Assembly (NCBI RefSeq): GCF_025151385.1
Contig: NZ_CP102287.1
Location: 3,162,001 to 3,226,000, forward strand
Origin: Hoylesella buccalis ATCC 35310
Lineage (GTDB): Bacteria; Bacteroidota; Bacteroidia; Bacteroidales; Bacteroidaceae
Direction: 5' to 3'
DNA length: 64,000 bases
The notes under the pieces: generated by a model
What the model saw: only the letters and a program-made list of their open reading frames with translations
Database searches by the model: none
What the model was told of the DNA's origin: nothing
Shown: positions 5,170 to 11,461 of the stretch, piece by piece
How positions within the stretch are numbered: position 1 is the first letter of the stretch
Layout: each line of letters opens with the position of its first letter
Made by a program: the position numbers and the translations under genes

Positions 5170-6238
5170 GGCGTAATGGACATTTGGTAGGCTGAAAAGC
5201 TCCAGATATCCTTTATTTATTACCTTTGTGCCATTTGAAAACCTATGAATAAAAAACATGTGTATTCTGTGGCAGCTCAAATGTTAAAAAGAACGGTCAT
5301 CGTCGGGGGATGCAAATGTATTTTTGCGGTGATTGCAAGAAGCAATTTCAAGGCGGTCGCCGCATTGACAGTACAACATTATGGCAAAGCTATCTGACAG
5401 AGAAACGAACCGTCAAAGAACTGTCAGTTATGCATAAATGTTCGGAGAGAACAATACGCAGAAAACTGAAGTTGGTAGCAGAGAGTTTTAACCCTTCCTT
5501 TCCTAAGGAAGCAACTGTCATAATTGATACAACATATTTCTCCAGAACATTTGGTGTAATGTTATTCCAAGATGCAACTTCGGGAAAGATCCTTTATCGC
5601 AAATTTGTTAAGAATGAAACCAACAAGGAGTATCTCTCTGGACTTGAAGATATAAAAGATGGAGGAACAAAGATAGTGGCGGTAGTCTGTGATGGACACA
5701 CAGGGCTTTTACAGGCTATAACCTCCTGCCCGGTACAAATGTGCCAGTTTCATCAATTGCAAATCATCAGAAGGCTTCTGACAAATAACCCTCATTTGCC
5801 TGCAAGCATAGAGTTGCTGGCATTGGCAAGGAAGATGTTTACCATTGGAAAGGAGCAGTTCTTAATGGAATTTGGTAAATGGTGTGCCCGGTGGGAGGAT
5901 TTTCTGAATGAAAGAACGACTCTTATTTCAGGCAAGACCACTTATACACACAGACGACTTAGGACTGCCAAAAGATCTTTAAAAACACATCTCAAGTGGC
6001 TCTTTACATATGAAGAACATACGGAGGTAAACATACCGAATACAACCAATATGTTGGAAGGCTACAACTCACAACTTAAAAGAGCTTTACTGAACCATAA
6101 CGGATTAAGCGATACCAACAAAAAGAAGTTTATTGATGGATTTCTGAATATAACAAAGTAGGCTGGAAATTGCCAGCCTACCATTTGTCCATTACAAACA
6201 TCTGGAGCTTTTTCAGCCTACCAAATGTCCATTACGCC
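5170..6238 (+). mobile_element. IS256-family insertion sequence with 8-bp target duplication
   Basis: The ends are near-perfect inverted repeats of about 37 bases. The left one starts GGCGTAATGGACATTTGGTA at 5170 and the right one is its complement ending at 6238; they differ by one A in an A-run. Both sides are flanked by the same 8 bases, AAAAAATC (5162-5169 and 6239-6246), a target duplication of the size IS256-type elements make. Removing the element and one duplication restores a continuous intergenic repeat similar to that near 31.7 kb. The identical duplications suggest a fairly recent insertion. Confidence 0.92.
5310..6161 (+). CDS. IS256-family transposase, zinc-binding variant; N-terminus out of frame with its ATG
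   Basis: A DDE-type transposase of the insertion sequence. Visible are a C-x2-C zinc-ribbon half (YFCGDCKKQF) at the start, a helix-turn-helix (VKELSVMHKCSERTIRRKL), and the acidic residues in VIIDTTYF, VVCDGHTGL and NMLEGYNSQLK. The frame continues upstream of 5310 without a stop to 5253 and encodes the missing half of the zinc ribbon (KTCVFCGSSNVKKNG), but it has no start codon of its own. An ATG at 5245 (ATGAATAAAAAACAT) lies one base out of phase. A single extra A in the A6 run, or a -1 slip on it, would join them into a complete protein of about 305 residues. It is either a frameshifted copy or one expressed by slippage. From the ATG at 5310 only half the zinc ribbon would be made. Confidence 0.85.
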   Translation: MQMYFCGDCKKQFQGGRRIDSTTLWQSYLTEKRTVKELSVMHKCSERTIRRKLKLVAESFNPSFPKEATVIIDTTYFSRTFGVMLFQDATSGKILYRKFVKNETNKEYLSGLEDIKDGGTKIVAVVCDGHTGLLQAITSCPVQMCQFHQLQIIRRLLTNNPHLPASIELLALARKMFTIGKEQFLMEFGKWCARWEDFLNERTTLISGKTTYTHRRLRTAKRSLKTHLKWLFTYEEHTEVNIPNTTNMLEGYNSQLKRALLNHNGLSDTNKKKFIDGFLNITK

Positions 6239-10143: not shown

Positions 10144-10602
10144 TTAATGGTTCGCAAAGCGTTGCTCGGCCAGGGCTTCGTACTTGGTTCCTGGTTGGCC
10201 ATAGTTGGCGTAGGGATAGATGCTGATGCCGCCACGAGGCGTGAAGAGGCCGGTTACCTCTATGTATTTGGGTTGCATCAGTTTGATGAGATCCTTCATG
10301 ATGATGTTCACGCAGTCTTCATGAAAGTCGCCATGGTTGCGAAAAGAGAATAGATACAGCTTCAGACTCTTGCTCTCCACCATGCGCTCGCCGGGGATGT
10401 AAGCGATGCGTATCTCGGCAAAGTCGGGCTGCCCGGTGATGGGACACAGCGATGTAAACTCGGGACAGTTGAACTGTACCCAATAATCGTTCATGGGATG
10501 CTTGTTCTGAAAGGTTTCCAACACCTCGGGTGCGTAATCCATTTGATACTTGGTTTTCGCTCCCAAAGCCTTTAAGCCATCCTCTGTTCTTGTACTTTCC
10601 AT
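10144..10602 (-). CDS. queF: NADPH-dependent preQ0 reductase (7-cyano-7-deazaguanine reductase)
   Basis: QueF reduces the nitrile preQ0 to the amine preQ1 in the cytoplasm, a step in making the tRNA base queuosine. The protein has 152 residues, the short unimodular YkvM-type size. The catalytic cysteine lies in [17 protein letters not shown], and the QueF signature ESKSLKLY follows, then [10 protein letters not shown]. It starts 20 bases downstream of a YhhQ-type transporter gene on the same strand and is presumably co-transcribed under the preQ1-type riboswitch ahead of that gene. The pairing fits salvage or synthesis of queuosine precursors. Confidence 0.95.
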
Positions 10603-10622: not shown

Positions 10623-11312
10623 TTATATGTTGAAGATGCGCAGCACATTGTAGTCTATGCCCTCATCGTATACGTCCTCGCCCTCGTGGGCCTTCAATTT
10701 GTGGACAACGCGGATGGTGACGGGCAATACCAGAATCTCGTAAGCAGTCTTGAACAATACTTGCCAGAACATCAAGGGTAAGATTGCCGCAGTAGGTATC
10801 ACCCCGAAAAAGGCCAAGGGGAAAAAGATGAGCGAGTCGACACTCTCACCAAAGACCGTGCTTAGGATGGCGCGGGCAGAGAAATTCTTACCCTTTGACG
10901 AGATTTTCATCTTGCTCATGACGTAAGCATTGACGAACGAACCGCACAAGAAGGCTATGAATGAGGCAAAAGCAATGCGCGGAGCCAGTCCGAAAATGTC
11001 GTGGAAGCTCTGTCCTAACGTCCAATAGCTGGCTCCGGGAATCAAGTCGCACAATGCTGCCATCATCACAAAGAAGAAGTTCATGGCAAACCCTGTCCAG
11101 ATGAGTAAGCGAGCTTTGCGATAACCCCATACCTCACATACGCAATCGTTGATGATGTACGAGATGGGAAAAACGATGAGGCCGCCGGTCAACGAGATGG
11201 GACCCACGGCGATTTGCTTGGTTTCCAACACGTTTGCCGTAATCAGGCAAACACAAAAAAGGATGCTGAAAAGCATGAATAGCACACTAACGTGCTGAGT
11301 TTTTTGTTCCAT
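10623..11312 (-). CDS. yhhQ: Queuosine precursor transporter (YhhQ/QPTR family)
   Basis: An inner-membrane protein of 229 residues with about six hydrophobic segments. YhhQ (formerly DUF165) proteins import preQ0/preQ1. Family hallmarks are the ITANVLETKQI segment near the N-terminus, the GGLIVFPISYIINDCVCEVWGYRKAR stretch in two adjacent pieces, and FGESVDSLIFFPLAF. The start at 11312 begins only four bases after the 3' strand of a predicted preQ1-I pseudoknot, so ligand binding could block ribosome access. It is the first gene of a yhhQ-queF operon. Confidence 0.92.
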   Translation of the reverse strand: MEQKTQHVSVLFMLFSILFCVCLITANVLETKQIAVGPISLTGGLIVFPISYIINDCVCEVWGYRKARLLIWTGFAMNFFFVMMAALCDLIPGASYWTLGQSFHDIFGLAPRIAFASFIAFLCGSFVNAYVMSKMKISSKGKNFSARAILSTVFGESVDSLIFFPLAFFGVIPTAAILPLMFWQVLFKTAYEILVLPVTIRVVHKLKAHEGEDVYDEGIDYNVLRIFNI

Positions 11313-11314
11313 TG

Positions 11315-11348
11315 TTCTTGTTTTTTAAGAGGTTTGTCAAGCACTCTA
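11315..11348 (-). promoter_or_regulatory. Predicted preQ1-I riboswitch
   Basis: Read on the minus strand, AGAG (11347-11344) pairs with CUCU (11331-11328) as P1. The loop bases CUUG (11341-11338) pair with CAAG (11320-11317) in the tail, forming an H-type pseudoknot. A run of six A's (11326-11321) lies between P1 and the tail. The base just before the P1 3' strand is C (11332), the position that pairs with ligand in known preQ1-I aptamers. The spacing closely resembles the Bacillus subtilis queC aptamer. The tail ends four bases before the ATG of a preQ1-family transporter gene, which supports translational control. It was identified by eye only. Confidence 0.68.
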
Positions 11349-11453: not shown

Positions 11454-11461
11454 CAAAGTTA
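11454..11461 (-). promoter_or_regulatory. Putative -7 box of the yhhQ-queF operon
   Basis: On the minus strand TAACTTTG matches TAnnTTTG. A start near 11447 gives a leader of about 135 bases with the predicted aptamer at its 3' end. No clear TTTG box was seen upstream. Confidence 0.4.

Follow-up and report, generated by a model that had tools for sequence, protein, structure and literature searches.

A probable preQ1-I type II riboswitch adjoining the yhhQ start codon in Hoylesella buccalis and its relatives in the Bacteroidales

The 5' leader of yhhQ, a queuosine precursor transporter gene of Hoylesella buccalis ATCC 35310, carries a compact pseudoknot that is very probably a preQ1-I type II riboswitch controlling yhhQ at the level of translation, and probably queF with it, by switching expression off at high preQ1 without a Shine-Dalgarno sequence. 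The stretch of DNA analysed (the window) comprises 64,000 nucleotides of contig NZ_CP102287.1 (positions 3,162,001 to 3,226,000, forward strand), and all coordinates given for the locus are window positions. An earlier note on this DNA had described, at 11315-11348 on the minus strand, AGAG/CUCU as helix P1 and CUUG/CAAG as the pseudoknot helix P2, with six A's between the P1 and P2 strands, a C just 5' of the P1 3' strand and a tail ending four bases before an AUG; the observation is confirmed in each of these respects. That the ligand is preQ1 and not preQ0, that the direction is OFF and that the ribosome is blocked are points that we infer.

Read from the sequence, the minus strand from 11347 to 11317 runs AGAG-UG-CUUG-ACAAAC-CUCU-UAAAAAA-CAAG, followed by AACA and the yhhQ start codon AUG (11310-11312). 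The 31-nt aptamer (11317-11347, minus strand, as are all of its parts) is supported by this sequence, by covariation and by its recurrence in 81 of 81 leaders, namely those of the window and of the best 80 of 283 confirmed relatives, which were taken as close loci. The 5' strand of P1 (AGAG, 11344-11347) pairs with the 3' strand (CUCU, 11328-11331), with AU/CG/GU and AU/UA/GC exchanges in relatives. The U directly 3' of the first strand (11343), invariant in the 62 rows of alignment A2 and followed by a G (11342), is presumably the ligand-contacting U, by analogy with the structure from Thermoanaerobacter tengcongensis (Tte), where a U stands at the same place after P1. The 5' strand of P2 (CUUG, 11338-11341) pairs with CAAG (11317-11320), and AUUG/CAAU and CCUG/CAGG variants of this helix occur in relatives. 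A loop of ACAAA (11333-11337) leads to the specificity C (11332), also invariant in A2, which together with the A before it gives the AC signature of type II (PMC11625349). The A-rich L3, UAAAAAA (11321-11327), has four A positions that are invariant in A2 and would be expected to dock in the minor groove of P1 (PMC11625349).

The earlier note's reading of the downstream genes, a YhhQ-type gene with queF next, holds for both. The product of yhhQ (10623-11312, minus strand, 229 aa) matches TIGR00697 with 106.6 bits (cut-off 50.95) and also Vut_1, and that of queF (10144-10602, minus strand, 152 aa), a preQ0 reductase of the QueF-II type, matches TIGR03139 with 170.6 bits (cut-off 86.9). A QueF motif lies downstream of yhhQ in 76 of the 78 evaluable close relatives. 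The host genome has one aptamer site only. Tgt and QueA are present in this genome and QueC was not found in it, by a search whose control was positive in 12 of 14 genomes; with Tgt and QueA and without QueC, the host therefore probably depends on imported preQ0 or preQ1, which its gene content suggests that it salvages.

The assignment to the preQ1-I class, also made in the earlier note, stands up on compensatory changes, gene association and position at the start codon. The element is an H-type pseudoknot with compensatory change in both P1 and P2, has an A-rich L3 and, adjoining the 3' strand of P1 on its 5' side, the specificity C (C11332), and lies 5' of queuosine genes (yhhQ-queF here; queC, queD and queF in relatives). 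What defines type II is an AC ahead of the second P1 strand (PMC11625349), and the window reads AAAC-CUCU at this point. Type I was rejected, as its signature is UC ahead of that strand and UU following the first one, where the window has AC and UG. Type III was rejected as well, with its UU flanking P1, pyrimidine-rich loop and AAGG Shine-Dalgarno sequence, against UG, ACAAAC and the tail CAAGAACA in the window. The element shares with the Tte and Bacillus subtilis type II riboswitches the H-type pseudoknot, the AC, the A-rich L3 and a G-C pair at the pocket floor; it differs from Tte in its 4-bp P1, its 7-nt L3, a tail without a Shine-Dalgarno sequence and a score below the Rfam cut-off, and its P2 is fully Watson-Crick, whereas two of the four P2 pairs of Tte are canonical. 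Relatives with GGGG/CCCCU have a 5-bp P1 and a 9-nt L3, as does Tte. With Escherichia coli type III the element shares control of yhhQ and a P2 strand in the ribosome-binding region (PMC10622847), but the E. coli riboswitch buries AAGG, a true Shine-Dalgarno sequence, and has UU at P1 and a pyrimidine-rich loop, none of which is present in the window. The Carnobacterium type I riboswitch, which holds two stacked ligands, has the same fold class and gene theme; since the window has AC and UG instead of the UC and UU of type I, a single ligand is expected from its sequence. Type I has been reported in Bacteroidota and type II has a similar distribution (PMC11625349), so the class is already reported in this phylum and the window element adds to it a compact member, with a 4-bp P1, that Rfam misses. 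Our literature search found no paper joining 'preQ1-I riboswitch' and 'Prevotella'; the sequences of McCown 2014 lay outside the comparison.

In the mechanism that we propose, scarcity of preQ1 would leave the tail UAAAAAA-CAAG-AACA-AUG single-stranded and the transporter would be made, the A-rich unstructured start region serving the ribosomes of this phylum in place of a Shine-Dalgarno sequence. When abundant, preQ1 would pair with C11332, CAAG would close onto CUUG and the A-rich loop would pack along P1, so that the region from about -35 to -5 would fold into a tight pseudoknot and obstruct the 30S subunit. The earlier note's statement that a strong Shine-Dalgarno sequence is lacking in most of this group seems to hold locally: GGAG, GAGG or AGGA occurs at -20 to -4 in 3 of the 43 long ORFs of the window, whose starts were set at their first ATG, while 8.2% of random 17-mers contain one of these motifs. 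In Flavobacterium johnsoniae, which has no Shine-Dalgarno sequences, initiation is favoured by A at -3, -6, -12 and -13 and by low structure from -20 to +20 (PMC6847099). The window leader offers a start region rich in A of this kind from L3 up to the AUG. As the phylum initiates without Shine-Dalgarno pairing, the element offers a clean test of a translational riboswitch that has no such sequence to hide.

The strongest rival accepts the preQ1-I fold and holds that what it naturally responds to is preQ0, or both compounds, so that it reports the imported substrate before QueF acts on it. The operon, which combines a preQ0/preQ1 transporter and QueF in a genome lacking QueC, fits this reading, as do the preference of YhhQ for preQ0 import and the affinity of Tte type II, which is just 17-fold weaker for preQ0 (PMC10622847). 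Set against it, Tte type II and E. coli type III both prefer preQ1 (PMC10622847), and the letters of the pocket in the window match type II as far as can be judged from sequence; preQ0 as the signal is unlikely on this balance. For type I, ligand preference is described as undocumented (PMC11625349).

A second rival places the action of the pseudoknot at mRNA stability or transcription instead of translation initiation. It draws on the B. subtilis preQ1-I type II riboswitch, which terminates transcription (PMC11625349), and on three of the eight queC sites found in relatives, where a long distance separates aptamer and AUG and which the start-codon mechanism does not cover. In the window a terminator has no room, the gap between aptamer and AUG being just 4 nt. 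The motif lies immediately 5' of the AUG in 80 of the 80 best loci (in 11 of them the protein match was extended upstream to the nearest in-frame ATG, which was taken as the start), and the spacing over the 81 leaders is 3 nt in 43, 4 nt in 20, 2 nt in 16 and 1 nt and 6 nt in one each. A terminator hairpin cannot fit into such a gap and was rejected for the close yhhQ relatives, though not for the three queC sites, and the rival as a whole is improbable. A candidate promoter -7 box, TAACTTTG, of the consensus TAnnTTTG (PMC7366714), lies at 11454-11461 (minus strand). Such a box was found within 260 nt upstream in 72 of the 81 leaders, against 7 of 80 coding controls; it is 149 nt before the AUG in the window and 45-70 nt before it in 50 of the 72, and in many relatives the aptamer would therefore make up most of the leader.

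Covariation in aligned yhhQ leaders, which the earlier note had proposed as a check on both helices, was followed in three alignments. Names of Prevotella-type genera or of Prevotellaceae account for 78 of the best 80 loci, the other two being Bacteroidales bacterium KA00344 and Phocaeicola oris; L002, itself Hoylesella buccalis with a YhhQ 97% identical, is among the nearest named relatives. Alignment A1 holds 54 distinct leaders of the 80, L055 having been dropped at a contig edge and the window, whose sequence is identical, standing in for L002, and A2 (62 rows) and A3 (29 rows) were hand-picked from fetched loci. In A2 the helices are paired at 99.6% overall and P1 at 99.2%, with 52 P1 cells changed on both sides, although the 5-bp GGGG rows of A1 and A2 sit one base off the best P1 register. 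The covariation score of A2 was 0.294 against 0.071 in shuffles, was reached in none of 500 shuffles and was at most 0.176 with the partner slid (2 columns). P2 is invariant in A1 and A2; in A3 four pairs are changed on both sides, with 13 cells in P1 and 4 in P2. A3 excludes the UCYAG/CARGA group (L158-L160, L167, L171, L207, L216) as well as L161, L187, L189, L191 and L208, and two of its 29 rows (L202, L203) are misaligned at P2 and counted as unpaired. P1 thus covaries strongly, through many compensatory changes, whereas P2 does so in few sequences and has the thinner support of 4 cells. Among 83 rows, including two hand-added ones, a 4-bp P1 goes with a 7-nt L3 in 49 and a 5-bp P1 with a 9-nt L3 in 22; a general tracking of P1 length by L3 length was rejected at a correlation of just 0.30, held down by some rows of ambiguous P1 register.

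The same comparison bears on a third rival, a conserved leader bound by a protein or the ribosome that senses no ligand and resembles preQ1-I by convergence. The nearly fixed letters of P2 are what a protein site might show, and the thermodynamic stability is ordinary (folding energy z 0.59 for the aptamer alone and 0.09 with flanks). Both helices carry compensatory changes, the pocket letters are invariant and the loci examined all lie before queuosine genes, bar one nucleoside hydrolase, all of which makes convergence very improbable.

The Rfam model RF00522, which the earlier note had suggested for a scan, aligned end to end with the window element (model positions 1-45 of 45), but the score of 13.6 bits fell short of the cut-off of 39; the whole-window Rfam scan gave no preQ1 match at cut-off and none of 20 relatives passed at the same threshold, and on relaxing it to E 10 the aptamer became visible in 1 of 8 relatives. 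The absence of a covariance-model hit, which the earlier note had named as refuting, came close to applying. As the comparative test was passed, we weigh this shortfall as a lineage limit of the model, and the element is filed under the structural class preQ1-I and not as an RF00522 match. A strict grammar was also applied (a 4-bp P1 closed by G-C with U after it, a 4-bp P2 ending in G-C, a C before the P1 3' strand, an A-rich L3, and the element 0-8 nt from the AUG). Loss of the paired bases in close relatives, which the earlier note had raised as an objection, did not appear. Chance resemblance in an A-rich leader, for which helices of just 4 bp each and the unmet Rfam threshold might speak, is rejected as vanishingly improbable, the grammar being satisfied in all 81 leaders, in none of 16,200 dinucleotide shuffles of them and in 2 of 20,000 shuffles of the window leader.

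The preQ1-I fold was then sought across the order by selection on protein alone, to avoid RNA-model bias. YhhQ was found in 65 of 295 Bacteroidales genomes at 67 places, one of which (L211) is cut by a contig end. The aptamer core, with P2 not required, was present at 50 of the 53 evaluable yhhQ places of at least 45% identity, and the grammar with a 4-bp P1 and P2 at 39 of the 53, L167 being left out as a spurious match. The three places without a scored core are L164, whose YhhQ is 62% identical yet whose leader has no trace of an aptamer, L208, which is degenerate, and L210, where a core with an L3 insertion can be seen by eye. Below 45% identity there were 13 places, nine with nothing and four with an element inside the reading frame, described below. 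These counts support the view that the fold has been kept before yhhQ across the Bacteroidales, where most sampled YhhQ genes of at least 45% identity appear to carry an aptamer that standard Rfam misses.

Pairing of P2 is retained through AUUG/CAAU in L194, L202, L203 and L205 and, by eye, through CUAG/CUAG in L187, while L189 and L191 keep three P2 pairs. L158-L160, L167, L171, L207 and L216 have UCYAG/CARGA with an A.A mismatch, and L171 a C.A as well; this mismatched P2 recalls the part-canonical P2 of Tte. The tail in L158-L160, L167 and L207 reads CAGGA, and the Shine-Dalgarno-like AGGAG is seen in L158 and L160, although such signals are said to be absent from the phylum. In the leaders of L157 and L210 the aptamer appears to be interrupted within L3 by some tens of inserted bases, which by eye could form a hairpin, with the A-rich stretch and CAAG still in place. 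Among 17 genomes picked as RNA-negative, 11 had no YhhQ match, and the six with a match all show a fold variant or the in-frame element (a long L3 insertion in L157, UCYAG in L158-L160, a longer P1 and L3 in L161, the in-frame element in L162).

Two RNA models gave matches, R1 in 22 of 198 genomes within the order and R2 in 146 of 301 within the family; R2 also matched 2 of 296 genomes in a sample of the phylum, both of them Bacteroidales. Large searches apply stricter filters, by which weak matches can be lost. YhhQ was found at E 1e-20 in 8 genomes of the same phylum sample, and in the five of these outside the order (L226-L230) no aptamer core was seen near the start, a reading that is uncertain for L229 and L230.

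Target genes were surveyed in 75 loci fetched with the RNA models (L082-L156), with Pfam applied to L107, L137, L140 and L145 only. The fold scanner missed three of the 75, L144 and L153 with the outer P1 base unpaired and L156 with a less A-rich L3. In addition to its place before yhhQ, the aptamer precedes queC in eight loci (L096, with an SGGLDST motif, L100, L104-L107, L119 and L130), queD in L137, where a radical SAM gene, queE by context, comes next, and queF alone in L145. At three of the queC sites it lies far from the AUG, counted from P1 (97 nt in L100, 97 nt in L105 and 180 nt in L106), and these may have another mechanism or another start. In L140 (minus strand), by eye, 4 nt separate the aptamer from the AUG of a short reading frame and 43 nt from the start of a hydrolase gene. 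The product of this gene, an inosine-uridine nucleoside hydrolase of lipoprotein type (PF01156, 202 bits), is by analogy with QueK (PMC11130926) a candidate for a queuosine hydrolase.

Some relatives carry the aptamer in series before yhhQ. Three copies that follow the strict grammar are present in L016 (2902-2997), L017 (2903-2997), L142 (898-989) and L234, and two in L059 (2938-2998); L121 has two copies with pairing by eye, L133, L135, L136, L152 and L236 have three copies with one imperfect helix each, and in L235 one copy is intact, two others being degenerate. All belong to one genus (g163) except L016, L017 and L059. The first copy has the compensated P2 CCUG/CAGG in L121, L133, L135, L136, L142, L234 and L236, several copies abut with 0-nt linkers, and the P1 helices differ in some. 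A junction pattern matched 7 of 399 genomes of the family (four arrays, L235 and two chance matches) against at least 5 in the reversed control, and misses CAGG junctions, so that the count is a lower bound; the matches in L231 and L237 were rejected by eye as coding sequence for a biotin carrier. One class in series recalls the glycine, c-di-GMP-I, SAM-I and glutamine tandem riboswitches, and two or three aptamers would give a steeper response. In the 2022 survey of PMC9481103, Table 3 lists preQ1-I, -II and -III among the classes not found in tandem, and our literature search found no paper with 'tandem preQ1'; the arrays, if confirmed by binding, would be an architecture listed there as absent for preQ1-I.

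The in-frame element belongs to a second YhhQ-family gene. In five of five such genes (L162, near 1462, plus strand; L241, near 1601, plus strand; L244, near 915, plus strand; L242 and L243, minus strand), codons 3-12 contain AAGG-UA-UCGG-AAAAC-CCUU-UAAAAAA-CCGA or a close variant, with the geometry of the leader aptamer, a 4-bp/4-bp pseudoknot with loops of 2, 5 and 7 nt. The five proteins are 63-72% identical to one another and 29-33% to the window YhhQ, and L242 matches TIGR00697 with 123.2 bits. Where two of the proteins share a residue, the codons agree in 90 of 98 pairs within codons 2-12 against 472 of 1313 beyond them, while 20 leader-type yhhQ genes show no difference (341 of 870 and 10,266 of 26,338), which suggests strong synonymous constraint on codons 3-12. 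The in-frame grammar was satisfied by 1,682 of 100,000 synonymous recodings and has a false-positive rate of about 1e-5 per nt (11 in 1,029,354). Against the element count its absence from R2 matches with filters off and E up to 10, the lack of a PreQ1 match in Rfam at this place, and a P1 that is invariant among the five with a P2 that varies only to a U.G wobble (L243). Ligand binding within codons 3-12 would stop the ribosome shortly past the AUG; if confirmed by binding, this would be a coding-region aptamer, of which none was described in the literature searched. Whether preQ1-I in the Bacteroidales is a translation switch free of Shine-Dalgarno sequences that comes in two architectures we did not find described, arrays and a coding-sequence aptamer, is in our judgement evenly poised. 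The gene after the in-frame one in L242, and by an overlapping frame in L162 and L243, encodes a CxxxCxxC protein, perhaps a deazaguanine salvage enzyme; that of L242 has no Pfam match and a weak match to RaSEA, the archaeosine radical SAM enzyme (26 bits against a cut-off of 212).

Elsewhere in the window, a tRNA-Arg with anticodon ccg lies at 2277-2354 on the minus strand (ARAGORN and Rfam), and an ORF at 5310-6161 on the plus strand resembles an insertion-sequence transposase, by impression from its sequence.
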